DNA of 64,000 nucleotides from Acidobacteriota bacterium (GTDB lineage Bacteria; Acidobacteriota; Terriglobia; Terriglobales; Acidobacteriaceae). The position numbers and the translations under genes were made by a program. Within the stretch, counting starts at the first letter, position 1, and the number at the start of each line of letters is the position of its first letter. The stretch is taken from contig JACPYL010000027.1 in NCBI GenBank assembly GCA_016196065.1, positions 372,001-436,000 of the forward strand, in the 5' to 3' direction. This document shows, in pieces, positions 1,988-60,271 of the stretch. The notes under the pieces were generated by a model. That model had not been told where the DNA came from and ran no database searches. It worked only from the letters and a program-made list of their open reading frames with translations.

Positions 1988-2129
1988 AGAGGTAAGAAGT
2001 CAGATTGCAGAGGTCAAGGCTTCGAGCTTCGCGCTACGGGCTTCGAGCGAATCGAAGAATTCTGGCTCGACGCTCGTAGCTCGCGGCTTTGTTTCACCTC
2101 TGCAATCTGAACCTCACACCTCTGACCTC
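1988..2129. repeat. Heptamer-phased inverted repeat, purD/mntR gap
   Basis: The left arm reads in 7-bp steps from 1988 (AGAGGTA, AGAAGTC, AGATTGC, AGAGGTC). The right arm reads from 2095 (CACCTCT, GCAATCT, GAACCTC, ACACCTC, TGACCTC). A 14-bp core is perfectly inverted: 2001-2014 against 2096-2109. The intervening segment (about 2016-2094) is itself an imperfect palindrome rich in TTCGAGC/GCTCGA. This is the only member of the heptamer set that lies between divergent genes. Confidence 0.8.
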
Positions 2130-2130
2130 T

Positions 2131-2146
2131 ATTAACCATGCTTAAT
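2131..2146. promoter_or_regulatory. Putative MntR operator upstream of mntR
   Basis: ATTAACCATGCTTAAT is a 16-bp dyad with 14 of 16 symmetric positions. It matches the perfect palindrome ATTAACTATAGTTAAT in front of mntH at 2831-2846. It covers the expected -35 position of the mntR promoter, whose -10 TATAAT is at 2154-2159, so a bound regulator would block RNA polymerase. Binding by MntR is inferred from the shared site and the gene pair. Confidence 0.75.
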
Positions 2147-2153
2147 CCCGCCG

Positions 2154-2159
2154 TATAAT
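2154..2159 (+). promoter_or_regulatory. -10 box of the mntR promoter
   Basis: A consensus TATAAT ends 7 bp before the GTG start of mntR at 2167, so the transcript should begin at or within a base or two of the start codon. No Shine-Dalgarno can fit, which suggests a leaderless mRNA. Confidence 0.6.
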
Positions 2160-2166
2160 CCGCTCT

Positions 2167-2835
2167 GTGATTACCGTTTCCAAAGAGGACTACCTGAAGG
2201 CCATCCTCGAAGCTGAGAGCGAGGGTGAAACAGTGATTTCGGCGACGCTCGCACATTGGCTCAAAGTGTCGCCGCCAGCGGTCACCATGGCAGTGCGGCG
2301 GTTGAAGAAGGACGGACTGGTGCGAGTGCAGGGAGGGGAAGTCAGACTCACTGCTTCCGGGCGCAAGATTGCCCGGAAGTTGACCCTTCGCCACCACCTG
2401 ATTGAACGAATGCTGACCGAAGTGTTTGGCATGGAGTGGTTCAAGGTGCACGACGAGGCCGAACGCCTGGAGCACGCCGTTTCTCCAGACTTTGAAGCGA
2501 AGCTTTTGTCGAAGCTGGGCCGCGGCGGCGCCTGTCCGCATGGAAATCTCAGCGAATTGGAAAGTCCGGCAAGCCGGCGCCGTCGAGGATTGGTGCTGTT
2601 GTCGGAAGCGGAACCAGGGAAGAACTACGTGGTCAGCGGAATCTACGAACGCGACCGCCATCTGCTGGAGTTTCTGGAAGCGCGCGGCATTCGCCCGGGC
2701 GCGAGACTCGGCCTGATCGACCGTAACTACGACAAGACCCTCTCCATCCGCACTGCCGCCGAAGCCATGGTGGTCGGGCGTCCTGCCGCCGAAAGAATCT
2801 GGGTTTCCCATCTCTCGCCCCGCCAAGTTAATTAA
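2167..2835 (+). CDS. mntR: DtxR/MntR-family metal-dependent repressor
   Basis: Protein of 222 residues with a winged-helix DNA-binding domain (about 5-70), a metal-binding dimerisation domain (70-145) and a C-terminal FeoA/SH3-like domain (about 150-222). Compared from memory with Bacillus MntR numbering, Asp8, His77, Glu99, Glu102 and His103 are in register as metal ligands, while position 11 is Lys instead of Glu. Glu99 stands where iron-sensing DtxR/IdeR proteins have Cys, which favours manganese sensing. The start is GTG at 2167 directly behind the -10 box. mntH follows, and both genes carry the same operator, so autorepression and Mn-dependent control of uptake are the likely roles. Confidence 0.9.
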   Translation: MITVSKEDYLKAILEAESEGETVISATLAHWLKVSPPAVTMAVRRLKKDGLVRVQGGEVRLTASGRKIARKLTLRHHLIERMLTEVFGMEWFKVHDEAERLEHAVSPDFEAKLLSKLGRGGACPHGNLSELESPASRRRRGLVLLSEAEPGKNYVVSGIYERDRHLLEFLEARGIRPGARLGLIDRNYDKTLSIRTAAEAMVVGRPAAERIWVSHLSPRQVN

Positions 2836-2846
2836 CTATAGTTAAT
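2831..2846. promoter_or_regulatory. Putative MntR operator upstream of mntH
   Basis: ATTAACTATAGTTAAT is a perfect 16-bp palindrome that overlaps the stop codon of mntR (TAA 2833-2835) and lies 49 bp before the mntH start. A possible -10, TAGTAT, follows at 2851-2856. The same dyad with two changes precedes mntR. Confidence 0.8.
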
Positions 2847-2895
2847 GTGGTAGTATGTACCTCAGTTTACCGACTGCCCCCAAACCACCCACGCC

Positions 2896-4341
2896 ATGAG
2901 CAAGCTGGACAGAGACCCCGCCGCCAATCCTCAGCCGAAATCCGGCACTCCGGTCCCCGGCCGCACTGGCGATTTCGATCGTGGCCACGTTTCGCTGGAA
3001 GGAGTGCATAGCTCGGTCGCAGTGCCGCATCACGAAGCTGGATTCTGGGAACAGTGGAGAGCATTTGTCGGTCCTGCAATTCTGGTCAGCGTGGGTTACA
3101 TGGATCCCGGCAACTGGGGCACCGATCTTCAGGCGGGAGCTCAATTCAAGTACGGACTGCTCTGGGTGGTCGGCCTGGCAAGCTTGATGGCGATCTTCAT
3201 GCAGGTGATGTCCGCCCGCCTGGGTGTGGTTACGGGTAAAGATCTCGCCCAATGTTGTCGCGACTGGTATCCATCGTGGACGCGCTGGCCCAACTGGCTC
3301 ATGAGCGAGATCGCGATTGGAGCCTGCGATCTGGCGGAAGTTCTCGGCAGCGCGGTGGCGCTGAACCTGCTCTTTCACATCCCGCTGTTCTGGGCAGTGA
3401 TCATCACCGGCGTGGATGTGCTGCTCCTGCTCGCTCTGCAATCGTTCGGCATGCGCGCGATTGAGGCGGTAGTGCTGTTGCTGATCGTGACGATCGCGGT
3501 GTGTTATTTCATCGAGATTTTCATTCTCCCGCAAACCCAGCCAGCATTTCTGGAAATGGGGAGAGCACTCATCTCGCCGCATTTCGGCAAGGCCGGGATG
3601 ATCTACGTCGCGATCGGCATCATCGGCGCCACCGTCATGCCTCACAACCTGTATCTGCACTCGGCATTGGTGCAGAGCCGCAAGCTGCAGAAAGACGAAC
3701 CGTCGATCCGCAGCGCGATCCGCTTCAACACCATCGACTCCATCGCTGCCCTGACCGTCGCCTTTTTTGTAAACGCCGCGATTCTCGTTTTGGCAGCCAC
3801 AGTTTTCTTCGGCAAGGAAAGCGTCACTGTCTCAGGTGGGCAACTGGTCACGTTCAGCGGACAGAGCGATTGGATCCGCGTCGCTTACCTGACGCTGGCT
3901 CCGTTACTCGGTACAGCCGCTGCGAGCACCCTGTTTGCCGTGGCACTCCTCGCCAGCGGACAGAGCAGCACGATCACAGGCACGCTCGCCGGGCAAGTTG
4001 TGATGGAAGGCTTCATGCGTTGGCGAATCCGGCCATGGGTGCGACGACTGATTACCCGCAGCTTGGCGATTCTTCCGGCGGTCTTGGTGATTGGAATCCG
4101 GGGCGAAGGTAGCGTCACCGATTTGCTGACACTCAGTCAAGTAGTGCTGGCCTTGCAGCTGCCGTTTGCGATGTTTCCACTCTTGCATTTCACAAGTTCA
4201 GGCAAGCGCATGGGCAAATGGAAAAATGGCGGCCTGTTGCTGGTCGCTGGCGGGGCCAGTGCTATGCTGATCACCGCCATGGACCTGTACGGGCTGCCCG
4301 ACACGCTGAAAGCCGCATGGCAAGTGATTCACGGCGGATAG
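2896..4341 (+). CDS. mntH: NRAMP-family divalent metal transporter
   Basis: Proton-coupled Mn(II)/Fe(II) importer of the inner membrane, 481 residues with about eleven hydrophobic segments. The two unwound-helix metal motifs are intact: DPGN at 70-73 in the first segment and MPHN at 248-251 in the sixth. The N-terminus has a soluble extension of about 50 residues, longer than in E. coli MntH. The ATG at 2896 is used; the Shine-Dalgarno is weak. The neighbouring mntR and the palindromic operator argue for manganese as the physiological substrate and for repression when Mn is plentiful. Confidence 0.95.
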   Translation: MSKLDRDPAANPQPKSGTPVPGRTGDFDRGHVSLEGVHSSVAVPHHEAGFWEQWRAFVGPAILVSVGYMDPGNWGTDLQAGAQFKYGLLWVVGLASLMAIFMQVMSARLGVVTGKDLAQCCRDWYPSWTRWPNWLMSEIAIGACDLAEVLGSAVALNLLFHIPLFWAVIITGVDVLLLLALQSFGMRAIEAVVLLLIVTIAVCYFIEIFILPQTQPAFLEMGRALISPHFGKAGMIYVAIGIIGATVMPHNLYLHSALVQSRKLQKDEPSIRSAIRFNTIDSIAALTVAFFVNAAILVLAATVFFGKESVTVSGGQLVTFSGQSDWIRVAYLTLAPLLGTAAASTLFAVALLASGQSSTITGTLAGQVVMEGFMRWRIRPWVRRLITRSLAILPAVLVIGIRGEGSVTDLLTLSQVVLALQLPFAMFPLLHFTSSGKRMGKWKNGGLLLVAGGASAMLITAMDLYGLPDTLKAAWQVIHGG

Positions 4342-4367
4342 CGCTAACACGAAAGACACGGAATCTC

Positions 4368-4784
4368 ATGTACGAAACCATCCTGGTAACGCTCGACGGC
4401 ACGCCCAGTGATCGCGCGATCATTGAGCACGTCAAGCAACTGGCGAAGCTGGCGCACAGCCGCCTCGTGCTGCTGCATGTTGCCGACGGATGGGCCGCCC
4501 GCACTTACGGGCGCGATGCAGTCAGTGCGGAAATCGCGGAGGACACTGCATACCTCGAAAAAATCCGCGCGGAATTTTTATCTGCCGATATTGCGACCGA
4601 GGCCGAACTGGCTTATGGCGACCCTGCCAGCGAAATTATCAAATGGGTGAAGCAAAAAGGCTGCGACCTCGTGGCCATGAGCACTCACGGACATCGCTTC
4701 CTGGCCGATGTGTTTCTAGGAACCACTGCCACGCGGGTCCAGCACAACATCAGTGCTCCGGTACTCCTGCTTCGGGCAAAGTGA
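4368..4784 (+). CDS. Universal stress protein, UspA family
   Basis: Single-domain Usp of 138 residues. The N-terminal strand MYETILVTLDGTPSDRAI and the C-terminal STHGHRFLADVFLGTTATRV segment with PVLLL fit the ATP-binding Usp fold, in which the G-2x-G-9x-G(S/T) loop holds nucleotide; here the first glycines are altered (GHRFLAD). The ATG at 4368 gives the usual family N-terminus. The frame continues 50 codons upstream into mntH without homology. It begins 26 bp after mntH, so read-through from the Mn promoter is possible. The gap holds two octamer-like units (ACACGAAA, GACACGGA) and no clear Shine-Dalgarno. Confidence 0.85.
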   Translation: MYETILVTLDGTPSDRAIIEHVKQLAKLAHSRLVLLHVADGWAARTYGRDAVSAEIAEDTAYLEKIRAEFLSADIATEAELAYGDPASEIIKWVKQKGCDLVAMSTHGHRFLADVFLGTTATRVQHNISAPVLLLRAK

Positions 4785-4803
4785 AGTCCCGCAACGTAGA
4801 AAA

Positions 4804-5206
4804 CTAGGCTTCCTTCTTCATCTTCAGTTGCAGCAAGTCCCACAAGTTCCCGTAGAGGTCTGCAAACACTGCGACGATTCCGTACGGTTCTTCTTTGGGC
4901 TCGCGTACGAATTTCACGTTCCGTTCGGTCATCTCACGGTAGTCCCGCCAAAAATCGTCCGTGTTCAGAAAGAGAAAAACCCGTCCGCCCGTCTGGTTCC
5001 CGACCCGGCTTGACTGCTCGGGATTGGCAGCTTTGCGCGAGCAGCAAGGTTGTTCCCTGGGAACCGGGCGGAGCGATCACGACCCAGCGCTTGTCCTCGC
5101 TGAGCCGAGTATCTTCAACCACGCGGAAGTTGAGCGTGCGCGTGTAAAAGGCGAGTGCTTCGTCGTAGTCCCTGACCACCAGCGCGACATGACCCAGTGT
5201 TTGCAT
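4804..5206 (-). pseudogene. Glyoxalase/bleomycin-resistance (VOC) protein, frameshifted
   Basis: The first part reads MQTLGHVALVVRDYDEALAF..., a standard VOC beta-alpha-beta start, up to TTLLLAQ. The frame then leaves the family. Shifting by one base at the TTT run 5032-5034 (AAA on the coding strand) restores a normal second half, including GGRVFLFLNTDDFWRDY and VAVFADLYGNLWDLL, ending at TAG 4804-4806 for a total near 134 residues. One extra base in the run is the simplest explanation: a real inactivating mutation or a sequencing error. The GTG at 5218 is an alternative start to the ATG at 5206. It converges with the universal stress protein gene. Confidence 0.8.
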
Positions 5207-5310
5207 CAAGATGCACACTACTTTAGCGCATTTGCAGGCCTCGTTTTCACACGGGCTGTGCGAAACGAATTACACTATTATTTTCCGGTTTTATTGTCAG
5301 GAAGGCACTC

Positions 5311-8082
5311 ATGTCATTGAATAGTTTCGGCGCACGCGCAACTCTCAAAGTCGGCGAAAAGGAATACGAACTCTACCGGATTGACGCTCTCGACAAGCAG
5401 GGCATTGCAACCACGCACCTGCCATTTTCGCTGCGCATCCTTCTCGAGAACCTGCTTCGCACAGAAGACGGCGGCAACGTCACCAAGGACGAAGTGCGCG
5501 CGCTCGCTGCCTGGAACAAGAATTCGAAGCCCGAGAAAGAAATTGCTTTTACGCCTAGCCGCGTCCTGCTGCAGGATTTCACCGGCGTTCCAGCAGTCGT
5601 CGATCTTGCGGCCATGCGCGACGCGATGAAGCGCCTCGGAGGCGATCCGAAGCTGATCAATCCGTTACAGCCTGCGGAACTTGTGATCGATCACTCCGTG
5701 CAGGTCGACGAATTCGGGACGACCAACGCTTTTGACGTCAATGCGCTCCTGGAATTTCAGCGCAACAAAGAACGGTATGCTTTCCTGCGCTGGGGACAGA
5801 CCGGATTCCGCAATCTGGCGATCGTGCCGCCGGACACCGGCATCGTTCACCAAGTGAACCTGGAATATCTCGCTCGCGTCGTATTTGTTCACGAACAAGG
5901 CGGCAAACGTACTGCTTACCCGGACACACTGGTCGGCACCGACTCGCACACCACCATGGTCAACGGTCTTGGCGTGTTGGGATGGGGTGTCGGCGGAATT
6001 GAAGCCGAAGCTGCCATGCTCGGACAGCCCGTCTCCATGCTGATTCCGCTGGTGGTCGGCGTGAAGCTCACCGGACGCCTGCGCGAAGGAGCGACCGCAA
6101 CCGATCTTGTTCTCACGATCACAGAAATGCTGCGCAAGCACGGCGTGGTCGGAAAGTTCGTTGAATATTTTGGCCCCGGCCTGCAGGATCTCCCACTCGC
6201 CGATCGTGCCACCATCGCGAACATGTCGCCGGAGTACGGCGCGACCTGCGGCATTTTCCCTATCGACAAAGAGAGCCTTCGCTACCTGAAACTCACGGGA
6301 CGCAGTGAAGAACAGATCGCACTGGTCGAAGCGTACGCTCGCGAGCAAGGGCTCTTCCACGATGCGCGAACTCCGGAAGCGGAATACTCCGAGTTGCTGA
6401 GCCTCGACCTGGCCACCGTGGAGCCGAGTCTCGCCGGGCCAAAACGTCCGCAGGATCGAGTCGTGCTTTCGAAGGCCGGAGAGTCATTCAACCAGGCTTT
6501 GCCATCCCTGATCAAACCCAAGGCGAAGGCCGCGGCTGCCGCTCCGGCGATGGGTGCGGAAAAGAAATGGGAGCAGGAGGGGGGCAACCCGGCTGCTGTC
6601 GGTGTTGAAGATCCCAACGTGCACGAGCACGTTTCTGCCAGCGTGAAATCTGCGCTGCAACACGGCAGCGTAGTGATCGCCGCGATCACGAGCTGCACGA
6701 ACACTTCGAATCCGTCGGTGATGATTGCCGCTGGGCTGCTTGCCAAGAAGGCCGTCGAAAAAGGTTTGTCGATGCCGGCATGGGTCAAGACGTCGCTCGC
6801 GCCCGGATCGAAAGTGGTCCGCGATTATCTCGAAGCCGCCGGTCTGACGCCTTATCTCGAAAAATTGAAGTTCAATATTGTCGGCTACGGCTGCACGACC
6901 TGCATTGGAAATTCCGGACCTCTGCCCACAGAAGTTTCCCAGGCGATCGAAGACAAAGAACTGGTGGTCGCATCCGTCCTTTCTGGTAATCGCAACTTCG
7001 AGGGACGCATCAACTCCGAAGTGCGCGCGAACTATCTCATGTCGCCGCCGCTCGTCGTCGCCTTCGCGTTGGCCGGACGCATCGACATCGACCTTCGCAA
7101 GGATCCCATTGGTAAGGATCGAGAAGGCCAGCCCGTTTACCTTGCCGACCTCTGGCCATCGCAACGTGAAGTTGAGCAGACCATGGAAAAGTCGATCACG
7201 TCCGACATGTTCCGTAAAAGCTATGGCGAAGTGTATTCAGGCGATGAGCGCTGGCGCACTTTGCCCGTGCCAACTGGCGAGACATACGCATGGGAAAAGG
7301 ACTCAACCTACATTCGTCAGGCTCCTTATTTCGACGGTATGAAAGTGAAGCCTGCGGCCATTGAGGACATTCGCAGCGCCCGCGTGCTCGCAGTTCTGGG
7401 CGACAGCGTGACGACCGATCACATCTCGCCCGCTGGGTCGATCAAGAAGGATGGTCCGGCTGGAAAATACCTGGTCGCCCACGGTGTGCAACCCGCCGAT
7501 TTCAATTCTTACGGATCACGCCGCGGCAATCACGAAGTCATGGTACGCGGAACTTTTGCGAATACGCGGTTGCGCAACAAGATGGTCACGACCGAAGGCG
7601 GATTTACTCGTCATCTGCCCGACGGCGCCGAGATGTCCATCTTCGAAGCGTCCGAGAAATATCATGCGGAGAAAGTGCCGCTCGTGATCCTCGCCGGCAA
7701 GGAATATGGATCCGGATCATCCCGTGACTGGGCAGCCAAGGGACCGCGCCTGCTGGGCGTGCGAGCGGTCATCGCGGAAAGCTACGAGCGCATTCACCGC
7801 TCCAATCTGGTTGGGATGGGAATCCTGCCGCTGCAGTTTCTACCCGCAGAAAATGCCGAATCGCTGAAACTCTCCGGCCACGAGGTGTTCGAAATTACCG
7901 GCATCGCCCAGGTGGTGGAGAAGTTTTCCGCGGGCCGGCAGATTACCGTGCGCGTGAAGGGTGAAACGAAATCCGAGTTCAAGGCGATCGTCCGCATCGA
8001 CACTCCGCAGGAAGCGTTGTATTACGCGAACGGTGGCATTCTGCAATACGTCTTGCGGCAACTGCTGTCGAACAAGTCCTGA
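5311..8082 (+). CDS. acnA: Aconitate hydratase A
   Basis: Monomeric aconitase of 923 residues, converting citrate to isocitrate in the TCA cycle, of the AcnA/IRP type. The [4Fe-4S] ligands are Cys462 in SCTNTSNPS and Cys528 and Cys531 in [10 protein letters not shown]. The C-terminal swivel domain begins after about residue 690 and contains [15 protein letters not shown] low-complexity Ala/Lys stretch near residues 395-415 is the interdomain linker. The ATG at 5311 follows AGGAAGG at suitable spacing. It stands alone, with its own upstream region after the divergent VOC pseudogene. Confidence 0.97.
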
Positions 8083-8116
8083 CCCGAATCCGTCTGCGCC
8101 TGAAGGGCATTCAAAT

Positions 8117-8142
8117 GTAGAGACGCGGCTTGCCGCGCCTCT
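8117..8142. repeat. Short palindromic unit (TAGAGAC family)
   Basis: GTAGAGA precedes a perfect six-base stem, CGCGGC TT GCCGCG (8124-8137). The same layout recurs at 35341-35362 with GACGGGGC TT GCCCCGTC, where bases on both arms have changed together. It lies after acnA and could weakly terminate transcription, but there is no T-run. Confidence 0.6.
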
Positions 8143-8188
8143 TCCCGTCCGGCAAAACTCCAACCCGAGCGTGCTAATCTCAATCCCC

Positions 8189-9034: not shown

Positions 9035-9055
9035 GGCTATTCCATATTGCAGAGG

Positions 9056-9865: not shown

Positions 9866-9978
9866 CTGTTCACCGGCGCGCAAACGGCATTCGCCGAAAC
9901 CTTCGCTATTCGCCGACTTGATCTTGATGTCCGTGGAGAAAAAAAACTACAATCCCCGAGAAATTGGAGGAGACAACT

Positions 9979-10731: not shown

Positions 10732-10804
10732 TGGCGTGACAAGAATCACAGCCATCGCAGAACAGTCTGGCGTATGATCCTTCCTTCCTTTTTTCGGAGG
10801 TGTC

Positions 10805-12118: not shown

Positions 12119-12122
12119 AGTG

Positions 12123-12147
12123 GGAGGCGAACTGGAAACTCGCCTCC
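12123..12147. repeat. Hairpin after the octaheme cytochrome gene
   Basis: GGAGGCGA (12123-12130) and TCGCCTCC (12140-12147) form a perfect 8-bp stem with a nine-base loop, 4 bp after the stop codon. There is no T-run, so a role in termination or mRNA stability is possible but unproven. Confidence 0.5.
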
Positions 12148-12181
12148 GCACTAACCTGACCGCATTTACAATTGCTCCCGC

Positions 12182-14682: not shown

Positions 14683-14794
14683 CAGGTTTCAGGTCCTAGG
14701 TGTTAGGTCTCAGGTCTTTAAAACCGCAGCCGCCGGTGACGTTGTAGTTTTGCCTAATACCTAGTACCTGACACCTAAGACCTGACACCTGCAT
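14683..14794. repeat. Heptamer-phased inverted repeat before the AhpD-like gene
   Basis: The left arm from 14683 is CAGGTTT, CAGGTCC, TAGGTGT, TAGGTCT, CAGGTCT. The right arm from 14753 is CCTAATA, CCTAGTA, CCTGACA, CCTAAGA, CCTGACA. The arms are complementary apart from scattered mismatches and enclose about 35 bp. The repeat begins 5 bp after the stop of the oxidoreductase and ends 15 bp before the next ATG. Confidence 0.85.
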
Positions 14795-29323: not shown

Positions 29324-29346
29324 CGGTGGCATAGAGATTTGCTAAG

Positions 29347-29374
29347 AACCGGGAACTGAGAACTGAGAACTGCT
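29347..29374. repeat. Heptamer run directly before coxD
   Basis: AAGAACC and GGG lead into AACTGAG, AACTGAG and AACTGCT at 29354, 29361 and 29368. The run ends one base before the coxD ATG at 29376 and takes the place where a Shine-Dalgarno would be. Only one arm is present here; no complementary arm is seen in the 52-bp gap. Confidence 0.7.
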
Positions 29375-29375: not shown

Positions 29376-29663
29376 ATGTCGGAACACGTTACATCCCGTG
29401 CTTTTTCGATTGTTCTAGGTGCAGGCCTGATCGTGTTGACGGGCGTCACGGTAGCCGCCGCTTTCGTGAATCTGGGTGCCTTTAATCCCGTCGTCGCGCT
29501 CCTGATCGCCACCATCAAGGCCACGCTGGTCATACTCTTCTTCATGCACGTGAAGGGCGCCAGTGAGAAACTGACCGCCGCCGTGGTTGTCTCCGGCTTC
29601 TTCTTTCTCTGCATCTTGCTGGCCTTGTCGCTCGCTGACTACGGCACGCGCAGCTGGCGCTAA
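29376..29663 (+). CDS. coxD: Cytochrome c oxidase subunit IV (prokaryotic type)
   Basis: Small protein of 95 residues with three hydrophobic helices (about 12-32, 38-58, 65-87). IKATLVILFFMHVKGASE is the conserved segment of bacterial COX4 proteins coded at the end of cox operons. It is separated from coxC by a 52-bp gap holding a heptamer run, and no clear ribosome-binding site precedes the ATG. Likely the last gene of the operon. Confidence 0.88.
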   Translation: MSEHVTSRAFSIVLGAGLIVLTGVTVAAAFVNLGAFNPVVALLIATIKATLVILFFMHVKGASEKLTAAVVVSGFFFLCILLALSLADYGTRSWR

Positions 29664-33206: not shown

Positions 33207-34355
33207 ATGGAAACGGAAAAAAGCATTCTTCTCGACCACGTCACGATCACATCCCCGGTCCAGCCGGTAGACAAGACATTGCAGGGGTCGGTCCTCGTCT
33301 TGATCCAGTTCGACGTCTGCGAGGAGATCCGCCTCGATGACCTCCGAGATATCTTCGGAGCCCGTCGCCAGGAAGCTAGTTTCAAACACGCCGCTCCGGG
33401 ATACGTCCGCTACGAGCGTCCTCCGGTCGTCGAGCGAATCGAGCCGCTGGTCCTCGAAACGGGCGAGCGCCTCGACGCGCAGATCAAGTATTACGACTAC
33501 GGTGTGGTGAGCGTGGTGTTTGAGTTGCCATTCTCGGGCAACTGGGAAACCTTGACCGGCCTCGCCAGCCGTTGGGTGTGGGACACCGACTTCACCAGCC
33601 TTGCCCAGAAGATTGCCCGGCAGAAGTTAGAGCGCGCTCGCCCCGCGCTCGTGAAGCCCTACGAAGAATGGCTCAACGAAGACTACTTCATCTTTCATGT
33701 GCGCGACATTGCAGGAAATCCGTCTGCATCCGAATTGCTTGCCAAAGAAGGTGGACGCATTGCCCAGATCGTGCGTGGTGAGAACTGTGACCTGTCCGAT
33801 GGCGAGCGCCAGGAAGTTCTGCAATCGAAAATCTCGTATTATCCGAATGATCTAACCGTGATCAGTTGGAACGGCGCGTTCCTTTATGACAACGCCGCCG
33901 GCGCGGAAACAATCATCCAGTTGCTCGAATATGCGAATTCGCAGCTTCTGGAGTTCCGCCACTATGACGAGTTACTCACGCGTGAGTTGAAGAGCGTCTA
34001 CGATTTCATGGAAAACGGTTCCACTGGAATTCGTGCGCGCTGGCGTACCGCGAAACGCGCCAACCGCCTGCATACGGTCCTGCTCGACGTGGACGAGCTC
34101 ACCGAGCGCGCTGACAACGCCATTAAATTCCTGAGCGACATGTTCTCCGCCCGCTTGTACAAAGTTGCCGCGTCGAAAATCGGAGTCACCGACTACAAGA
34201 ACCTCGTCAACCAGAAAGTCCACACCGCCGAAGAACTTTACCGCTTCATGGTTGACCAGTTCCATCAGAGCCGCGCCTTCGTCCTGGAATTGATGGTGGT
34301 GATTATCCTGATCATCGACCTGATCTGGCTGTTCCGGGGCAGAATGCCAATATAG
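33207..34355 (+). CDS. RMD1/YagE-like (DUF155) protein with C-terminal membrane anchor
   Basis: Protein of 382 residues. The N-terminal half has the KYYDYGVVSVVFELPF strand motif. The second half contains DLTVISWNGAFLYDNAAG, IIQLLEYANSQLLEFRHYD and a long helical part with DVDELTERADNAIKFLSD, the arrangement of DUF155/RMD1 proteins. A single hydrophobic helix near 355-375 is followed by RGRMPI, so the protein is probably tail-anchored. Eukaryotic members (RMD1, RMND1) act at mitochondria; the bacterial role is unknown. The stop codon lies within the first heptamer unit of the following repeat. Confidence 0.75.
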   Translation: METEKSILLDHVTITSPVQPVDKTLQGSVLVLIQFDVCEEIRLDDLRDIFGARRQEASFKHAAPGYVRYERPPVVERIEPLVLETGERLDAQIKYYDYGVVSVVFELPFSGNWETLTGLASRWVWDTDFTSLAQKIARQKLERARPALVKPYEEWLNEDYFIFHVRDIAGNPSASELLAKEGGRIAQIVRGENCDLSDGERQEVLQSKISYYPNDLTVISWNGAFLYDNAAGAETIIQLLEYANSQLLEFRHYDELLTRELKSVYDFMENGSTGIRARWRTAKRANRLHTVLLDVDELTERADNAIKFLSDMFSARLYKVAASKIGVTDYKNLVNQKVHTAEELYRFMVDQFHQSRAFVLELMVVIILIIDLIWLFRGRMPI

Positions 34356-34455
34356 TGATTAGTGATTGGTGATTAGTGACTAGTTCCACCACAACCGAAT
34401 GCAGCTTGAAACTAACCACTAACCACTAACCACTAACCACTAACCACTAACCACT
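34354..34455. repeat. Heptamer-phased inverted repeat before ylxP
   Basis: The left arm from 34354 is AGTGATT, AGTGATT, GGTGATT, AGTGACT. The right arm from 34411 is six exact copies of ACTAACC (34411-34452) followed by ACTGG. The arms pair with one mismatch per unit. The left arm starts inside the stop codon of the RMD1-like gene, and the right arm ends about 8 bp before the ylxP ATG at 34463. Confidence 0.9.
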
Positions 34456-34867: not shown

Positions 34868-34902
34868 CAACTGGAAACAGGCAACGGGAAACCAGAAACT
34901 GG
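34868..34902. repeat. Heptamer run in the ylxP-rbfA gap
   Basis: Five 7-bp units in phase: CAACTGG, AAACAGG, CAACGGG, AAACCAG, AAACTGG. The consensus is close to the AACTGAG units at 29354 and 39868. The run ends 66 bp before the rbfA ATG. Confidence 0.7.
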
Positions 34903-39860: not shown

Positions 39861-39902
39861 GACTGAGAACTGAGAACTGGGAACTGACTACTGACTACTG
39901 AA
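39861..39902. repeat. Heptamer run upstream of the DUF3224 gene
   Basis: Six 7-bp units in strict phase: GACTGAG, AACTGAG, AACTGGG, AACTGAC, TACTGAC, TACTGAA. The run fills most of the gap between the stop of the 60-residue gene (39909) and the DUF3224 start (39818), both on the minus strand. Confidence 0.85.
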
Positions 39903-49965: not shown

Positions 49966-49997
49966 GGAATCTCCTTGAATGATTTGTGGCGCAGTTA

Positions 49998-52146: not shown

Positions 52147-52240
52147 GAGCCGTTCTGACTGGATAATCGTGGGATGCGGGCAAAAGGTTACGCAGGCAGA
52201 GAAAAATGATTGTTACTGCGACTTAGGATGGGCGGTCGAT

Positions 52241-52858: not shown

Positions 52859-52878
52859 CGGGTTGCTCCTGTTAATTC

Positions 52879-53379: not shown

Positions 53380-53389
53380 ACTGCGTCCC

Positions 53390-54166: not shown

Positions 54167-54305
54167 GGCAGGAAAGCTCTCCAAAGGCTATCTGGAGGCG
54201 GGAACGGGGTCAAGATGCGGGATGGGTACCAGTCGTGCAAACCGAAATCGCGTGGCCGAGTAGAAGTTCGAAAGAAACCAACCGAAGCAGATGAGCAGGA
54301 AGCGA

Positions 54306-54380
54306 TGGTGGGCGCTATAGGATTCGAACCTATGACTTCCACCGTGTGAAGGTGGCACTCTACCGCTGAGTTAAGCGCCC
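54306..54380 (-). tRNA. tRNA-Val (anticodon CAC)
   Basis: On the minus strand GGGCGCT...AGCGCCC closes the acceptor stem, followed by discriminator A and an encoded CCA (54306-54308). The D-arm has CTCAGCGGTAGAG. The anticodon arm is CCACC TTCACAC GGTGG with CAC in the loop. The T-arm has the GGTTCGAATCC sequence. Length is 75 including CCA. It lies between the sigma factor gene and the CDF-like gene. Confidence 0.96.
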
Positions 54381-54539
54381 GACCGCGGAAGGTTCCTAAA
54401 TTCTACAACATCACCCGCGACAGTGTCCTCGGCGGTCTCCAATCCGCTGCAGAAACCCTCGCGGTGGCCGCTGTTCTAGACTGGTGCCTCCGGACTTTCA
54501 CCGCAGATCAAGCTCTCCCCAACCCGCTACACTTGAGCG

Positions 54540-55166
54540 ATGGCAACGGACTCGCTTACTCGCCTCCAGGATGTCCGGCGCGGGATCGCGCTCGAATACC
54601 TCACCATCGGATGGAACCTGCTGGAGTGTTTGGTCGCTCTGATCGCTGGCTTCACCGCGGGAAGCGTTGCCCTGGTTGGCTTCGGCGTGGATTCAGCAAT
54701 TGAAAGCGCCTCCGGTTCAGTGCTGCTCTGGCGGCTCCATGCCGAGCGGCGTGGGAGTCACGTTGAAACCATCGAACGCAAGGCTCTCAAGCTGGTAGGT
54801 CTGAGCTTCTTTTTGCTCGCCGCATACGTGGCCTACGATTCAGTTGTGACCCTATTCGAGCGAAAAGAACCCGAGCGGAGTTTTGTCGGAATCGTCCTGG
54901 CGATAGTTTCGCTGATCGTGATGCCGCGGCTAGCCCGCGCAAAGCGGAGAGCGGCCGCCAACCTGAATAGCGCAGCCCTGCTGGCCGACTCGCGGCAGAC
55001 CTCGCTTTGCGCGTACCTCTCAGCCATTTTGGTAGGTGGACTGGTTTTGAACGCTGCACTCGGCTGGTGGTGGGCCGATCCGATTGCAGCCTTGGTGATG
55101 GTGCCCATCATCGCCAACGAAGGTAGGGAAGCCATGAAGGGCGAACCCTGTGCAGACTGCCACTAG
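54540..55166 (+). CDS. Short CDF-like cation transporter
   Basis: 208 residues with about six helices. EYLTIGWNLLECLVALIAGF and FGVDSAIESASGSVLLWRLH hold the first cation site residues, and LLADSRQTSLCAYLSAILV with WWWADPIAALVMVPIIANE the second, as in cation diffusion facilitators. It lacks the usual C-terminal cytoplasmic domain, ending with EPCADCH, a small Cys/His tail that could bind metal. The substrate is unknown. Confidence 0.75.
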   Translation: MATDSLTRLQDVRRGIALEYLTIGWNLLECLVALIAGFTAGSVALVGFGVDSAIESASGSVLLWRLHAERRGSHVETIERKALKLVGLSFFLLAAYVAYDSVVTLFERKEPERSFVGIVLAIVSLIVMPRLARAKRRAAANLNSAALLADSRQTSLCAYLSAILVGGLVLNAALGWWWADPIAALVMVPIIANEGREAMKGEPCADCH

Positions 55167-55420
55167 CCACAAACCCCTAAGCTGCCGGCGCCGATGCTAC
55201 CAACGTTGATGTGAGCGCACCAGGTCACTGAGCCGAGCGGACCGGCAGAGTGATCGAGTGACACTCCAACTGCAACCCCACAACGATGAAAAGAAACGAT
55301 CCCGCGAGGAAGGAAGAAACCACAGAAGGCCAACCGACACCGGGAAGTAGTGTGCCTTCGTTTGCTGTGCTCGACAAGTAAGCAAATTCCGGCTCGCGGA
55401 GATGCTAAGATTTCCGATCA

Positions 55421-56356
55421 ATGGCCATTCGCCGCAAAGCCAAAAAGTTAGTGGGCACGGCCGTCAAAGCTGTGCGCGCGCGCAAGGTTGACCATCGTGA
55501 TGGGACGGAGCTGGTCATCATCACGGGCATGAGTGGTTCAGGGAAGGCTTCGGCGCTGAAGGCGTTCGAAGATCTGGGCTACTACTGCGTCGATAACCTT
55601 CCTGTCGATCTGATTCCCCGTTTTGCGGAACTGGCGTTGCAGTCGGGCGAAATTCCGCGTACTGCGCTGGTGGTGGACGTGCGGGAGGGGACGCAGTTGG
55701 AGCGCTTGCCCGCGATTGTGAAGTCCATCAAGCGGATGATTCCAACGCGGGTGATTTTCCTCGAAGCGAGCGACGCGTCTCTGCTGCGGCGATTCTCCGA
55801 GACTCGCCGGCCGCATCCGCTGGGCACCGATACTACCGTCAAGGCTTCGCTGACTGCTGAGCGGCGGCACTTGCGATCCTTACGCGCGATTGCCGACCTG
55901 GTGATCGATACTTCGAAGTTCAATGTGCACGAACTGCGTTCGCATTTGACTGATCGTTTCAAACAGCATTCGGGAAGCAACCAGACCATTCTTGTGTCGT
56001 GCGTGAGTTTTGGATTCCGCCATGGTGTGCCGGACGATGCCGATCTGGTGTTCGATGTGCGCTTTCTTCCCAATCCACATTTTGTGCCCGAGTTCCGGCC
56101 GCTGACCGGACGGCATCCGCGGGTTGCGAAGTACATACGATCGTTTCCGCAGACGCAGGAATTCATCAACCGTATTTCGGATCTGCTGGTGTATTTGTTG
56201 CCGCACTATATCCGCGAAGGCAAAAGTTATCTTACGATCAGCTTCGGCTGCACCGGCGGACAGCACCGCTCGGTGATGATCGCGGAGGAAGTCGGCAAGC
56301 GGCTGCGCAAGGCCGCTTACAAAGTAAAAGTCACGCACCGGGACATGCCGAAGTAG
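55421..56356 (+). CDS. rapZ: RNase adapter protein RapZ/YvcJ
   Basis: 311 residues. The P-loop GMSGSGKAS is at 36-44, with Ala where Ser or Thr usually follows the Lys. DLGYYCVDNLPVDLIPRFAE is the family signature, and the C-terminal domain has FGCTGGQHRSVMIAE. In E. coli it binds GlmZ and guides RNase E; elsewhere it acts in cell-wall precursor control. The ATG at 55421 is used. A 254-bp gap upstream shows no clear signal; downstream, the exporter gene begins after 46 bp. Confidence 0.93.
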   Translation: MAIRRKAKKLVGTAVKAVRARKVDHRDGTELVIITGMSGSGKASALKAFEDLGYYCVDNLPVDLIPRFAELALQSGEIPRTALVVDVREGTQLERLPAIVKSIKRMIPTRVIFLEASDASLLRRFSETRRPHPLGTDTTVKASLTAERRHLRSLRAIADLVIDTSKFNVHELRSHLTDRFKQHSGSNQTILVSCVSFGFRHGVPDDADLVFDVRFLPNPHFVPEFRPLTGRHPRVAKYIRSFPQTQEFINRISDLLVYLLPHYIREGKSYLTISFGCTGGQHRSVMIAEEVGKRLRKAAYKVKVTHRDMPK

Positions 56357-56402
56357 GTGGGCGCCCGGCGTGCAGACTTCCATATAGAATTAGTCCACAC
56401 GC

Positions 56403-58283
56403 ATGGCAACCACTTCACCGGCCGCCGGGACCAACGTCCGCACGGACCATCCAACCGGCCAACTCGTCCGGTTACTGCGCTACCTGGTTTCCTATCTTTG
56501 GCAGTTCCTGCCTGCGGTTGTTCTGATGGCGATGGTGGGACTGCTGGATGCCTTCCGGTTGTTGCTGATTGGTCCGATTTTTGATCGCGTGCTGAATCCA
56601 GCGTCGCAGGGCAGTCCGATTCAGTTGTTCAGCTTTCCGGGAAGCGATCGGACACTTTTTCTGCAGCAACTCGTGCCTTCGCATTTCCACAATCCCTGGA
56701 CGGTGGTCGCGTTTGCTCTGGTGGCCGCGACCGTGTTGAAAGGAATTTTCGATTACGTCGGAACGTACCTGGTGAACTACGCCGGCTTCGGCATGGTCAC
56801 CGATCTGCGGGACGATTTGTACAACACCATCCTGCGCCGGTCGAGCGCGTTCTTTTCCAAACACACGACCGGCACGCTGATCTCGACGATTGTCAACGAC
56901 ATTGAAAAAGTGCAGTCGGCGATGTCGACGGTGATGGCGGAATTTCTACAGCAATTTTTTACGTTCGTGTTCACGGCGGGAGTGGTGATTCTCATTGGGG
57001 GACGGTTGGCATGGGTGCTGCTGCTGTTCGTTCCCGTAATTCTGTATTCGTCGCGAAAGATCGGGCGGCAAGTCCGGTCCACTACACGGAGCGGGCAGGA
57101 CAAACTGGGCGAAGTCCAGAACATCCTGCATGAGACCATCACCGGCAACCGGATCGTGAAGGCCTTTGGGATGGAGTCCTGGGAAGCGGGGCGGTATAGA
57201 AAGGCGGCGCAAAGATTCTTCCGCGCCAATCTACGCTCGGTGGCCGCGGCCGCGGTCAGTTCTCCGCTGATGGATATCATCGGGTCGGTCGCGATTGCGC
57301 TGCTGCTGCTGCTGGGGCGTGACGAGATCAAGAAGGGTTTCTTCCTTCCAGGTACGTTTCTGGCATTCATCATTGCGGTCTTCAAGCTTTACGACCCGGT
57401 GCGGAAGTTCGCTTTGTTCAATAACAGTTTCCAACAGATGAACGGAGCATCGTCGGAAATATTCCGCTTCATGGATATCGAAGACGAAGTGCAGGAGAAA
57501 CCGGATGCCAAACGGCTGCCAAAATTCTCGCAGTCGATCCAACTCAAGGATGTTTCTTTTGCGTACGACGCCGCCGAAGACTCGCGCGTTGTTTTGCATG
57601 GGATCAACCTACAGGTAAAAGCGGGAGAAGTGCTGGCAGTAGTCGGATCGAGCGGGGCGGGGAAAAGCACGCTCGTGCATCTGATCCCCCGGTTCTTCGA
57701 CGTGACTGGTGGCAGCATTCTGATCGATGGCAATGATGTGCGGAATGTAACCCTGGCGTCGCTGCGATCGCAGATCGGAATCGTGACGCAAGAGACGGTG
57801 CTGTTCAACGACACGGCGCGCAACAATATTGCCTACGGCCAACCCCATGTCTCTCAGAAGGACGTAGAAGCGGCCGCGAGAGCTGCGCTGGCGCACGACT
57901 TCATCCTTGGGCTGCCCGAGGGATACCAGACGGTGATCGGCGAGCGCGGCGTGCGGCTTTCGGGCGGTGAGCGCCAGCGGATCGCGATCGCACGGGCAAT
58001 CTTGAAGAATGCTCCCATTCTGATTCTCGACGAAGCGACTTCGGCACTGGATAGCGAATCGGAAGCGCTTGTCCAATCGGCTCTGCAAAATCTGATGACC
58101 GGGCGTACTGTATTGGTGATCGCGCACAGGCTGTCGACTGTACGTCGCGCGGATCGCATCGTGGTGATTGAAAATGGCACCATCAGCGATATTGGCGCGC
58201 ATGAAGAGCTCATGCAAAAGTTAGGGACGTACCGGCGGTTGTACGAATTGCAGTTCGCGGAAACAGATCGAGTAAGTGGTTAG
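56403..58283 (+). CDS. ABC exporter, MsbA-like (fused TMD-NBD)
   Basis: 626 residues. Six helices in the first 340 residues, then the NBD with Walker A VVGSSGAGKSTLVHLIPRF (near 415), Q-loop IVTQETVLFNDT, signature LSGGERQRIAIARAIL, Walker B LILDEATSALDSES and H-loop VIAHRLSTVRRAD. The fold and the GLPEGYQTVIGERG wording are those of MsbA/lipid exporters. Lipid A or another lipid is the likely cargo. Its stop codon lies inside the first unit of the heptamer repeat. Confidence 0.9.
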   Translation: MATTSPAAGTNVRTDHPTGQLVRLLRYLVSYLWQFLPAVVLMAMVGLLDAFRLLLIGPIFDRVLNPASQGSPIQLFSFPGSDRTLFLQQLVPSHFHNPWTVVAFALVAATVLKGIFDYVGTYLVNYAGFGMVTDLRDDLYNTILRRSSAFFSKHTTGTLISTIVNDIEKVQSAMSTVMAEFLQQFFTFVFTAGVVILIGGRLAWVLLLFVPVILYSSRKIGRQVRSTTRSGQDKLGEVQNILHETITGNRIVKAFGMESWEAGRYRKAAQRFFRANLRSVAAAAVSSPLMDIIGSVAIALLLLLGRDEIKKGFFLPGTFLAFIIAVFKLYDPVRKFALFNNSFQQMNGASSEIFRFMDIEDEVQEKPDAKRLPKFSQSIQLKDVSFAYDAAEDSRVVLHGINLQVKAGEVLAVVGSSGAGKSTLVHLIPRFFDVTGGSILIDGNDVRNVTLASLRSQIGIVTQETVLFNDTARNNIAYGQPHVSQKDVEAAARAALAHDFILGLPEGYQTVIGERGVRLSGGERQRIAIARAILKNAPILILDEATSALDSESEALVQSALQNLMTGRTVLVIAHRLSTVRRADRIVVIENGTISDIGAHEELMQKLGTYRRLYELQFAETDRVSG

Positions 58284-58344
58284 TGGTTGGTGATTAGTGA
58301 TTCGTTAAAATTGAGAATCCACGAACCACGAACCACTAGCCACT
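58275..58344. repeat. Heptamer-phased inverted repeat before yicC
   Basis: The left arm from 58275 is AGTGGTT, AGTGGTT, GGTGATT, AGTGATT. The right arm ACGAACC, ACGAACC, ACTAGCC, ACT runs from 58321. The left arm contains the stop codon of the exporter gene. The right arm is followed by GGTTTTTCCT and, 10 bp on, the yicC ATG at 58355 with no Shine-Dalgarno. The T-run makes it also look like a weak terminator. Confidence 0.9.
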
Positions 58345-58354
58345 GGTTTTTCCT

Positions 58355-59242
58355 ATGCCTCTTCGATCCATGACGGGTTACGCGCAGGTCCGGGGACAGG
58401 TGAAGGCTGGCCTGGCGTTCGCGCTCGGGCTCAAGTCGGTGAACCATCGGTTTCTCGATCTGCATTTCCGGCTGCCTTCGGACACGGATTCGCTGGAGAT
58501 GAAGCTGCGCCGGATGTTGAAGGAAAAAATGGCGCGTGGCCATGTGGAAGTCACGCTCAGCCTGGAACGCGCAGGCAGCAACGGTGTCGCTCTCAATCGC
58601 CAACTCGTGGGAAGCTACGTGCAGGCGTTCCGGGCAGCGGCAACTGAGTTTGGAGTGAGCGGCGAGCCGGATCTGAATGTGGTTTTGCGGATGCCGGGCG
58701 CGATGGAGTCGGCGGCTGAAAAATCTGAAGAGGAACTCGAGGCCGCGGTTCTGGCACGAGTGGAAGAATCGCTCGCCAAGTTGAACCAGATGCGCGAAGA
58801 GGAAGGGCGCGGCATCGAGACGGAATTACGCGATCGGATGGGGCACCTTGCGAAAGCGGGAGCGGGCATGGAAGGCCATCGCAGCGCGATCCAACGCAGC
58901 TATGCCGACCGCTTGCAGGCCCGCTTGCAGGAGTTGCTGGGTGGTCACATCGACAAGGAGCGCATCCTGCAGGAAACGGCGTTGCTGGTGGACCGCAGCG
59001 ACATTCAGGAAGAACTCGTCCGATTGAATACGCACGTCAAACATTTTCTCGGGCTGCTGGATCAGGGCGGCGAAGTTGGAAAGAAACTCGACTTCCTGTT
59101 GCAGGAAATGAATCGCGAAGCGAATACGCTTCTTTCCAAAACTTCCGGACTGGCGGGCGAAGCGCTGAAGATCACCGAGATGGGATTGCTTATGAAGGCC
59201 GAGATCGAAAAGTCCCGCGAGCAGGTGCAGAACCTGGAATGA
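58355..59242 (+). CDS. yicC: YicC family endoribonuclease-like protein
   Basis: 295 residues. SMTGYAQVRG opens the protein, SVNHRFLDLHFRLP is the N-terminal signature, and the C-terminal DUF1732 part has KLDFLLQEMNREANTLLSKT. YicC proteins are metal-dependent RNases. It overlaps gmk by four bases, the common yicC-gmk-rpoZ-coaBC order. Confidence 0.93.
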   Translation: MPLRSMTGYAQVRGQVKAGLAFALGLKSVNHRFLDLHFRLPSDTDSLEMKLRRMLKEKMARGHVEVTLSLERAGSNGVALNRQLVGSYVQAFRAAATEFGVSGEPDLNVVLRMPGAMESAAEKSEEELEAAVLARVEESLAKLNQMREEEGRGIETELRDRMGHLAKAGAGMEGHRSAIQRSYADRLQARLQELLGGHIDKERILQETALLVDRSDIQEELVRLNTHVKHFLGLLDQGGEVGKKLDFLLQEMNREANTLLSKTSGLAGEALKITEMGLLMKAEIEKSREQVQNLE

Positions 59243-59940
59243 GTATCGTCTACATTGTGTCGGCGCCTTCGGGTTCGGGCAAGTCCACGTTGGTCAACGA
59301 ACTGTTCAAGGTCGCGAAGAACCTCGACTTCTCCATTTCCTATACGACCCGTCCTCCGCGGGGCAGCGAACAGAATGGAAAAGAATATTTTTTTGTTACC
59401 AAAGATCAGTTCGAGTCCATGATCGCCGCTGACGAATTCCTGGAGTACGCCAACGTCTTCGGAAATTACTACGGGACGGCCAGACGCTTCTTGCGTGAAA
59501 CCGAGGCGCGCGGCAACGATTTGCTGCTGGACATCGATGTTCAGGGCGCGCAACAGGTGAAGAAGAAACTTCCCGACGCAGTCAGCATCTTCATTCTTCC
59601 GCCGGACCGGAAGACTCTGGAGTGGCGGCTACGGAGCCGGGGCCAGGACCCAGAAGCGATGATCCGCCGCCGGTTGGACAACGCCCGGCGTGAGATTGAG
59701 AATTACTCCAAATACGGCTATATACTGATTAATGAGAAGCTCGAGCGGGCAACCGACGAATTGAAAGCCGTGGTGCTGGCGGAGCGGATCAAGCGATCCG
59801 GAGCAAAACCATCACCGGAAGAGTTGCGGCTTCTGGAGATGGCGCAGTCCATTCAACTGGAGAAGGCTCGTGCGCGAGTGCGGCCGATCCTGGAATCGTT
59901 CGGCGCCAGTGGTTCGGATAACGATTCGGGCAAGAGCTGA
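59239..59940 (+). CDS. gmk: Guanylate kinase
   Basis: 233 residues, converting GMP to GDP with ATP. The P-loop SAPSGSGKST is at 8-17. YTTRPPRGSEQNGKEYFFV binds GMP, and DIDVQGAQQVK lies in the lid region. The C-terminus is about 25 residues longer than E. coli Gmk. The ATG overlaps the yicC stop. Confidence 0.96.
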   Translation: MSIVYIVSAPSGSGKSTLVNELFKVAKNLDFSISYTTRPPRGSEQNGKEYFFVTKDQFESMIAADEFLEYANVFGNYYGTARRFLRETEARGNDLLLDIDVQGAQQVKKKLPDAVSIFILPPDRKTLEWRLRSRGQDPEAMIRRRLDNARREIENYSKYGYILINEKLERATDELKAVVLAERIKRSGAKPSPEELRLLEMAQSIQLEKARARVRPILESFGASGSDNDSGKS

Positions 59941-59963
59941 GTTTCTCACCTGGGGGAAAGTGC

Positions 59964-60203
59964 ATGAAGTTGATCGAAGGGTTCGACAGCAACTATCGCT
60001 ACATCCTGGTCGCGGCGCGACGTGCACGGCAACTGCAAGGTGGCGCACCGCCGGTGATCGAAACGATTTCGCGCAAGCCGTGCCGGATCGCGCAAGATGA
60101 GATCCGCGCCGGTAAGGTGAAGTGGATCATTCCAGAAATTCCGAAGTCGGCCGTGGACGCGGCAACCGAGAATCTGGACAAAGCGTTCTTGCCGGACGCG
60201 TAG
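59964..60203 (+). CDS. rpoZ: RNA polymerase omega subunit
   Basis: 79 residues. DSNYRYILVAARRARQLQGG is the conserved alpha-helical core that clasps the beta-prime subunit. AQDEIRAGKVKWIIPEIPK follows. The start ATG has GGGGGAAA upstream. It is 23 bp after gmk, and the heptamer repeat starts right after its stop. Confidence 0.93.
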   Translation: MKLIEGFDSNYRYILVAARRARQLQGGAPPVIETISRKPCRIAQDEIRAGKVKWIIPEIPKSAVDAATENLDKAFLPDA

Positions 60204-60271
60204 GAACCAGTTCTCAGTTCCCGGTTCTCAGTACACGCGACACCGGTTTTCTGAGAACTAAGAACTGATAA
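60204..60271. repeat. Heptamer-phased inverted repeat before coaBC
   Basis: The left arm from 60204 is GAACCAG, TTCTCAG, TTCCCGG, TTCTCAG. The right arm from 60251 is CTGAGAA, CTAAGAA, CTGATAA. The arms are complementary, with TTCTCAG/CTGAGAA exact. The repeat begins at the base after the rpoZ stop and ends 12 bp before the coaBC ATG at 60284; no Shine-Dalgarno is visible. Confidence 0.9.

Follow-up and report, generated by a model that had tools for sequence, protein, structure and literature searches.

The gaps between genes in a 64,000-nucleotide window from the genome of a soil bacterium of the Acidobacteriota (C27:372001-436000, contig JACPYL010000027.1; the window is the whole stretch of DNA that was analysed) contain tandem arrays of 7-bp units, some of which face each other as the arms of hairpins. 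With a probability of about 0.55, we read them as a many-family acidobacterial version of the intergenic repeats of Xanthomonas, Nostoc and Beggiatoaceae, built of heptamers and sometimes octamers, in which the unit is read and the hairpin is largely a by-product. An array is a string of degenerate 7-base units; several positions of the unit are constant, and one or two vary far more. Gaps with two arrays usually hold a single family facing inward, commonly with a G/T-rich unit on the coding strand directly past the stop codon and its complement directly ahead of the next start. A polar repeat-generating process may seed the arrays, and selection would retain them only where the genes tolerate them. 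The object of reading would be the unit, and the likeliest place for it is close to the start codon, where canonical Shine-Dalgarno cores were rarer beside the arrays and the constant positions seemed most conserved.

Abundance of the heptamer arrays

Together with the window, two further pieces of the same genome (C10:1-400000 and C25:1-400000) gave a sample of 864 kb out of 5.53 Mb, in which gene borders were taken from a codon-score script written for this analysis. At score 14, the numbers of lag-7 segments were 8 in the window, 23 in C10 and 44 in C25, whereas the remaining lags (lag 14 aside) gave 0-2 segments in the window at lags 4 to 20 and at most 4 in any piece at lags 4 to 21. Lag 14, a multiple of 7, gave 3 segments in the window. 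One first-order Markov shuffle per piece, scanned at lags 4-14, yielded no segment at this score. The scan for 7-bp runs with inverted partners that had been proposed in an earlier note on this DNA thus came out in favour of the pattern, with lag 7 far above the other lags and the shuffles. At score 10, intergenic segments outnumbered coding ones by 11 to 1 in the window, 47 to 5 in C10 and 68 to 7 in C25, and by the gene calls used for this count the intergenic share of the DNA was just 10-13%.

More than half of the arrays (52 of 98) had a complementary array at most 200 bp away, compared with 2 in the reversed control; the other 46 had no separate partner, although several of them held both arms themselves. 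A search of 541 gaps of at least 35 bp with a single alignment cut-off yielded 87 inverted repeats, and 41 were heptamer-phased, defined as a lag-7 match fraction of 0.45 or more. The match fraction of the pooled set of 87 was 0.451 at lag 7 and 0.416 at lag 14, and every other lag between 4 and 15 gave 0.21-0.27. The arms of the hairpins consisted of tandem 7-mers and were 13-66 bp long; the loops measured 3-72 bp. In the 33 co-directional gaps they began a median of 5 bp past the stop codon and ended a median of 25 bp ahead of the next start.

The spread among genomes was followed with the pattern CTGAGAACTGAGAACTGA, which covers one unit family, allowing up to 2 mismatches. Our own genome had 139 partly overlapping matches and the reversed control had 0. 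Matches were found in 22 of 23 relatives from the same genus, in 37 of 61 near relatives and, in a patchy manner, in 59 of 199 genomes across the phylum, the last two counts including our own genome. One distant genome from the phylum sample (G121, 8.3 Mb) had 1363 matches of the AACTGAG pattern; many of the places listed there contained GGACTGA units.

Arrays were also present in many gaps of a long one-direction cluster of mostly small genes (C25:265-292 kb), which by the order and size of its genes we take to be the S10-spc-alpha operon; the protein that served as its anchor is presumably SecY, on the same grounds. The operon panel comprised our own genome and 40 relatives, that is, the 41 of 61 genomes whose contig reached far enough and which were chosen, and two of its pieces (L187 and L193) were short. 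Gaps in the genus had a median length of 96 bp (438 gaps from 17 genomes including our own); the median was 75 bp for the family (265 gaps from 10 genomes) and 24 bp for relatives from the order and class (367 gaps from 14 genomes). By comparison, the arrays fill operon gaps whose length is about 24 bp in less close relatives. Strong inverted repeats numbered 165, 35 and 7 in these three groups, respectively, and 127, 26 and 7 were lag-7 phased.

Apparent constancy of the unit

Several unit families were found within one genome, with left-arm forms that include AGTTNYC, AGGTNTY, AGTGRYT, RGCTNCT, RGCTNCG and GTCGYTN; the assignment to families was partly made by hand. Column statistics were obtained from 319 arrays, pooled from 16 operon relatives and our own sample. 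Information differed strongly between the columns of a unit, from 0.2-1.0 bits at the lowest to 1.7-2.0 bits at the highest in each of the nine largest families; for the most variable column per array, a weak test gave 0.446 vs 0.40. The commonest unit was AACTGAG, which represents the largest family. The variable positions of this family fall on the T and the A of TGA, and for this reason the idea that the arrays serve as stop codons in all frames was dropped by eye.

Whether a column is constant or free mattered for its change between species. We compared 20 triples in which the array was detected in a third species and the compared pairs were disjoint within each gap. Changes were found at 21 of 457 sites in constant columns (4.6%), 31 of 208 in free columns (14.9%) and 210 of 1119 elsewhere in the gap, so that the constant columns differed from the free ones with p = 1.4e-5 and from sequence outside the arrays with p = 4e-15 (Fisher). 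A first version of the test was biased, since one member of the compared pair had served to detect the array; its counts were 23 of 549, 43 of 303 and 228 of 1911, respectively. By side, the constant columns had changed at 7 of 275 sites in right-hand arrays and at 14 of 182 in left-hand arrays. For right-hand arrays, constant and free columns were distinguished with p = 4e-5 at the main setting and p = 0.03 at the stricter one (11 triples), and at a looser setting p was <1e-5 on both sides. These comparisons support conservation of the unit, as far as alignments can tell. The earlier note had assumed selection on pairing and not on sequence; the lower rate of change at constant positions than at free positions and in the rest of the gap speaks for the opposite.

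The right arrays of the operon panel ended a median of 11 nt ahead of the start codon. A canonical Shine-Dalgarno core was sought in the last 22 nt of each gap, with related species counted as independent. Of the 61 gaps whose right array lay at most 15 nt from the start, 18 had the core, compared with 97 of 197 gaps without a right array (p = 0.008). In outgroup gaps the core was present in 120 of 209 cases.

Neutral polymerase slippage with fast turnover would let the arrays grow and shrink by 7 bp and leave them in gaps only because genes cannot hold them. We consider this explanation unlikely. Slippage had been suggested in the earlier note, and the support for it was mixed. In 7 of 9 families the mean difference between neighbouring units was a little smaller than between units of different arrays, a direction towards which the choice of arrays by lag-7 similarity pushes; identical neighbouring units were not in excess (0.131 vs 0.126 for units from different arrays). 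Slippage would also fit one 7-bp unit gained or lost between two relatives (L188 and L194, operon gap 12, by eye) and the perfect array at window position 34411-34455. The indels in arms, counted over overlapping species pairs, were more often of 7 bp (10) than of 6 bp (6) or 8 bp (2), though those of 1 bp were commoner (23). A hypothesis based on the size of the polymerase active site, cited in PMC4692102, points in the same direction. However, the order of units between loci was random in the largest family (0.784 vs 0.782 shuffled); among three smaller families two were ~2.5 standard deviations (sd) above the shuffles and one was null. Moreover, slippage leaves the low rate of change in constant columns, the inward polarity and the same-family pairs unexplained.

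Pairing of the two arms

The arms of a hairpin matched each other no better than they matched arms of other hairpins from their family: the own partner was the best match in 7 of 39 hairpins, with 7 expected. This count omits two of the 41 hairpins, which could be placed in no family. Mismatches in the 33 co-directional hairpins were 40 G-U and 40 A-C, and in the genus panel 127 and 124. Neither result supports the selection on pairing assumed previously. Orthologous gaps were compared within the range of 35-320 bp. In 21 disjoint orthologous pairs, newly arisen mismatches included 13 G-U and 12 A-C, and both-sided changes numbered 12 against 5.8 expected. Six initially paired sites had changed on both sides and all six were still paired, but four of them came from a single gap in which one column had switched in a coordinated way through successive units. 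A stricter set with overlapping pairs gave 32 both-sided changes vs 12.9, and 11 of 12 initially paired sites were still paired. A looser alignment gave 534 both-sided changes vs 338 expected, 257 still paired, and was judged unreliable because poorly related gaps passed the cut-off. Thus, the proposed test for covariation of the arms found none within families and only rare compensating changes. On these alignments there may be a little compensatory change between the arms, and comparison shows that fine-scale pairing is apparently not maintained. The pairing of the hairpins is probably in large part a by-product of two same-family arrays that face each other.

Hairpins selected in the mRNA, for instance for translation coupling, protection of mRNA ends or transcription termination, are distinctly unlikely in our view. 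Their position close to both genes would suit such a role (left arm a median of 5 bp past the stop in 33 gaps, right array a median of 11 nt ahead of the start), and so would the shared family of the arms: of 107 two-armed gaps, 79 had both arms from one family, where chance would give 15.8. In the genus panel the sense strand was more stable in 84 cases and less stable in 62. In the 33 co-directional hairpins, however, the fold energy was -42.1 kcal/mol for sense and antisense alike, and G-U mismatches were no more frequent than A-C ones, also among those newly arisen. The arms were unmatched beyond the family level, 28 two-armed gaps of the genus combined different families and 89 gaps had a single arm. 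T content downstream was 3.58 vs 2.85 per 12 nt; this small enrichment and the strand-symmetric energy led us to reject intrinsic terminators as a candidate. Many of the hairpins are also inside what is putatively a single ribosomal-protein operon, where terminators would harm.

Replacement of families at a gap

The 438 operon gaps of the genus were labelled by family, with 8-bp arrays unlabelled; 79 had both arms of one family, 28 had two families, 27 had a left and 62 a right array only, 174 had no array and 68 were too short. A control with reversed sequence gave 6 matches in 370 gaps. At one gap, four families were found across the genus while the right flank was largely conserved, and 20 of 29 gaps held at least two labels besides empty. 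Two sister genomes (L184 and L185) differed in family at gaps 12, 18, 26 and 27; two others (L194 and L195) had the same label at gaps 16, 19, 26, 27 and 31. Comparison between species thus showed frequent replacement of the family at a gap.

One genome of the same genus (G022) had operon gaps of normal length and 0 arrays at score 12. Its residual lag-7 signal was 0.294 vs 0.255 at other lags, and the other 16 genomes of the genus had 0.31-0.43. It looked as if array maintenance had stopped in this lineage. Genome G020 likewise had few arrays or none in the operon.

In several relatives (L191 of genome G006, L161, L166, L173 and L063), arms phased by 8 bp were seen by eye beside 7-bp arms, with CCTTGAAA and GATT-type units. 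The operon gaps of G006 had 14 lag-8 and 11 lag-7 arrays. Contrary to the earlier note, the step is therefore not always seven, since 8-bp phased arms were found in some relatives both by computation and by eye.

The arrays might also be the ends of small mobile inverted-repeat elements of the MITE (miniature inverted-repeat transposable element), REP (repetitive extragenic palindrome) or foldback type. This is very unlikely. Whole elements did differ or were absent at one place between relatives with conserved flanks, their inverted ends were of one family, and IS200-like transposases (PF01797) were found in 52 of 61 genomes. Against this, the 41 hairpins showed no target-site duplication (3.32 vs null 3.23, sd 0.13), the element ends being fuzzy, and the interior was hardly shared, with a loop similarity of 11.4 within and 10.4 between families. 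Copies had no common order of units in the largest family, although two other families were above their shuffles as given earlier. The PF01797 count was not tied to the arrays: none was found in G009 (83% completeness), and array-free relatives from the order had some.

Polarity of the arrays

Eleven families had 7 arrays or more. In nine of them, the G/T-rich form was on the side of the left gene, and its complement was on the side of the right gene. In our own sample, the G/T unit was on the coding strand past stops in 31 cases vs 13, and on the non-coding strand ahead of starts in 27 vs 5. The 5' arm was G/T-rich in 36 of 41 hairpins.

A telomerase-like enzyme would produce this polarity if it extended the 3' ends of breaks in gaps with G/T-rich heptamers, and joining of the ends would give inward arrays of one family with independent units. 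The arms are indeed of the same family yet have independent units, their order in the largest family is random, and neither a duplication nor a conserved interior accompanies them. Nevertheless, we regard such an enzyme as most improbable. A reverse transcriptase domain (PF00078) was found in 21 of 61 genomes; it was not found in several array-rich ones, some of them incomplete, nor in genomes with many AACTGAG-family matches such as G002, G006, G012 and G013. Ku was not found in some genomes of the latter kind (G008 and G017) yet was present in G022, so that neither protein tracked the arrays. Furthermore, the addition of ends alone does not explain columns that remain conserved after insertion.

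Points against reading of the unit

Several observations weigh against the reading that the unit is what is conserved and read. The triple test is small (20 triples) and depends on alignments of repeats, and when left-hand arrays were taken by themselves, the p value for constant against free columns was 0.07 (main setting) or 0.18 (stricter setting). The low rate of change in constant columns could come from conversion between units rather than from selection, and the slight likeness of neighbouring units belongs here as well. Shine-Dalgarno cores were present in 68 of 112 gaps whose right array lay beyond 15 nt of the start, and the weaker triplets GAG, AGG or GGA in 97% of gaps with a start-adjacent array, so the ribosome-binding site may be weakened and not replaced. 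The family label had almost no tree signal (148 changes vs 153 shuffled in 29 gaps, L193 omitted from the tree, the first count being inflated by missed arrays and unlabelled 8-bp arrays), which is odd for a conserved function. The polarity has its misfits too: GATGGCT (17 arrays) runs opposite to the G/T rule, CTGACTT (16 arrays, with a G+T of 0.51) lacks a clear G/T strand, and of the 185 arrays in the operon panel just 124 followed the rule, with 48 more ambiguous. Finally, arms of one family were five times as frequent as expected by chance, which coarse selection for pairing would predict likewise.

Array loci of the window

Tandem Repeats Finder (TRF; period 7, score at least 30) called arrays at 2019-2048, 14683-14791, 29345-29372, 34353-34455, 39862-39901, 58275-58336 and 60208-60273. 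Seven of the eight places that had been listed beforehand were thereby recovered; the eighth, 34868-34902, is weak and was missed. Its run passed a lag-7 cut-off of 12, failed at 13 and had no partner. The five hairpins named at that time are real (1983-2128, 14683-14791, 34353-34442, 58275-58344 and 60209-60273), and the arrays at 29346-29372 and 39862-39901 stood alone, without a partner at the cut-off used. The five differing units given for these loci do vary in sequence, but they reduce to three families when strand is allowed for: ACTAACC with AGTGGTT, AACTGAG with TTCTCAG, and CAGGTCT.

Table 1. Heptamer arrays and hairpins of the window (positions in the window)
Feature	Position	Strand	Remarks
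Hairpin in divergent gap	1983..2128 (arms 1983-2048, 2065-2128)	.	TRF, lag-7 scan, inverted-repeat search
Left array, AGGTNTY family	14683..14718	+	Begins 4 bp past upstream stop codon
Right array, AGGTNTY family	14756..14791	-	18 bp ahead of next start
Single right array, AACTGAG family	29346..29372	-	Directly ahead of predicted gene at 29376
Left array, AGTGRYT family	34353..34388	+	Overlaps upstream stop codon
Right array, ACTAACC x 6.4	34407..34455	-	Perfect copies 34411-34455
Weak AACNGGN-like run, membership doubtful	34869..34899	+	Upstream of, or within N-terminal part of, rbfA open reading frame
Single array, AACTGAG family drifting to ACTGACT	39862..39901	-	Gap between two minus-strand genes
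Left array, AGTGRYT family	58275..58303	+	Overlaps end of ABC-transporter gene
Right array, AGTGRYT family	58315..58344	-	Ahead of yicC
Left array, CAGTTCT family	60209..60231	+	5 bp past upstream stop codon
Right array, CAGTTCT family	60251..60273	-	Ahead of coaBC

The hairpin in the divergent gap was heptameric only in part (lag-7 match 0.58), with units of the AGGT/GATTGCA type outside and of the GCTTCGA type inside. The perfect ACTAACC copies were the sole array in the window that looks like fresh slippage. Rfam, searched at gathering scores, matched only a tRNA in the window.

At the 3' end of the ABC-transporter gene (58260-58290), where the heptamer array overlaps it, the last residues were unlike those of relatives, as if the array had replaced the original gene end. 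In three relatives (L164, L167 and L168), the gap between this gene and yicC held a third palindromic repeat (GGGACAGCCGAGGGCGGCTGTCCCTACG-like) in place of the heptamer hairpin. The nearest relatives of coaBC among named records belong to Terriglobia, Acidobacteriaceae and Candidatus Sulfotelmatobacter metagenome-assembled genomes, so that an acidobacterium of the class Terriglobia is the most likely source. The gene ahead of coaBC is presumably rpoZ, a name given from position. In the rpoZ-coaBC gaps of L156, L169 and L179 and at ~297.1 kb of C25, a palindromic repeat GTCATCCTGAGCGAAGCGAAGGATCT with its complement, by eye without heptamer phasing, occupied the same kinds of gap. Seven other relatives (L154, L155, L157, L158, L160, L162 and L165) had by eye a GC-rich terminator-like hairpin followed by a T-rich stretch in this gap, directly 3' of the putative rpoZ, where the window has the hairpin 60209-60273.

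Comparison with known repeats

The likeness to heptamer repeats of cyanobacteria, which had been noticed from the window alone, was borne out, and so was a layout common to different unit families. No matching description was found for Acidobacteria in searches of open-licence papers, but close ones are available for Xanthomonas, Nostoc and Beggiatoaceae. Searched by word, a survey of prokaryotic structure-prone sequences (PMC4060949) gave no match to 'heptanucleotide' and a single mention of Acidobacteria, within a legend. Over-representation of heptamer repeats has been noted for many bacterial genomes, and PMC4692102 and PMC4679880 leave their function open.

In Xanthomonas and Nostoc, GGGNATC and GGGGA(C/T)T heptamers lie in gaps, single or as inverted pairs, with the G-rich unit on the coding strand past stops and on the non-coding strand ahead of starts (PMC4692102). 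Here too, seven-base units were over-represented in gaps, single or in inverted pairs, and the polarity rule applied with G+T in place of G, two of 11 families being misfits. By the same account, those genomes have one G-quadruplex-forming unit type, whereas we found many families, none of the largest with a constant GGG. A GGG run per unit, as counted for G-quadruplexes, was not found in our 16 families; just ACTGGGT (4 arrays) has GGG within the unit, and its third G is variable. Related species of Xanthomonas and Nostoc mostly have the same gaps occupied, with length and sequence varying (PMC4692102); here, by contrast, the family at one gap was found to be replaced. Several heptamers per genome are likewise known for the STRR (short tandemly repeated repetitive) sequences of heterocystous cyanobacteria, with three in Calothrix, and the GTGATTA heptamer of Helicobacter pylori (both cited in PMC4692102) occurs here as a form within the AGTGRYT family.

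TAACTGA repeats in Beggiatoaceae, cyanobacteria and Bacteroidetes lie ahead of starts with few canonical ribosome-binding sites (PMC4679880), and our arrays are similar in lying directly ahead of starts with canonical sites rarer beside them. The unit here is not TAACTGA, but the AACTGAG family shares six bases with it in register (AACTGA). As described there, the repeats consist of one unit, with related heptamers rarely repeated, and had 1 inverted repeat among 170 sets; pairing, almost absent for them, was frequent here. REP sequences and the BIME type resemble our arrays as intergenic palindromes in many copies. In the GTAG REP families, stems are 6-13 bp long, loops are mostly very short and a terminal tag is present (PMC3733652); the arm and loop lengths found here lie outside those ranges.

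The arrays are thus a real, richer, many-family and often paired version of bacterial intergenic heptamer repeats. Many families at once, the same gaps with different families and one relative with decayed arrays make conservation of the unit separable from conservation of pairing, a separation that these data begin. The polarity is like the rule in unrelated phyla, which suggests that one kind of process generates the repeats in all of them. A bolder and rather improbable proposal is that a polar template-like process, shared by unrelated bacteria, writes heptamer 'dialects' with the G/T strand pointing away from the genes; a host factor would read the constant positions near starts, and G022-like lineages would have lost the writer or the reader, after which their arrays decayed. 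Although seven-letter repeats themselves were already known, their description in Acidobacteria, with many families per genome that are often paired, appears to be new.

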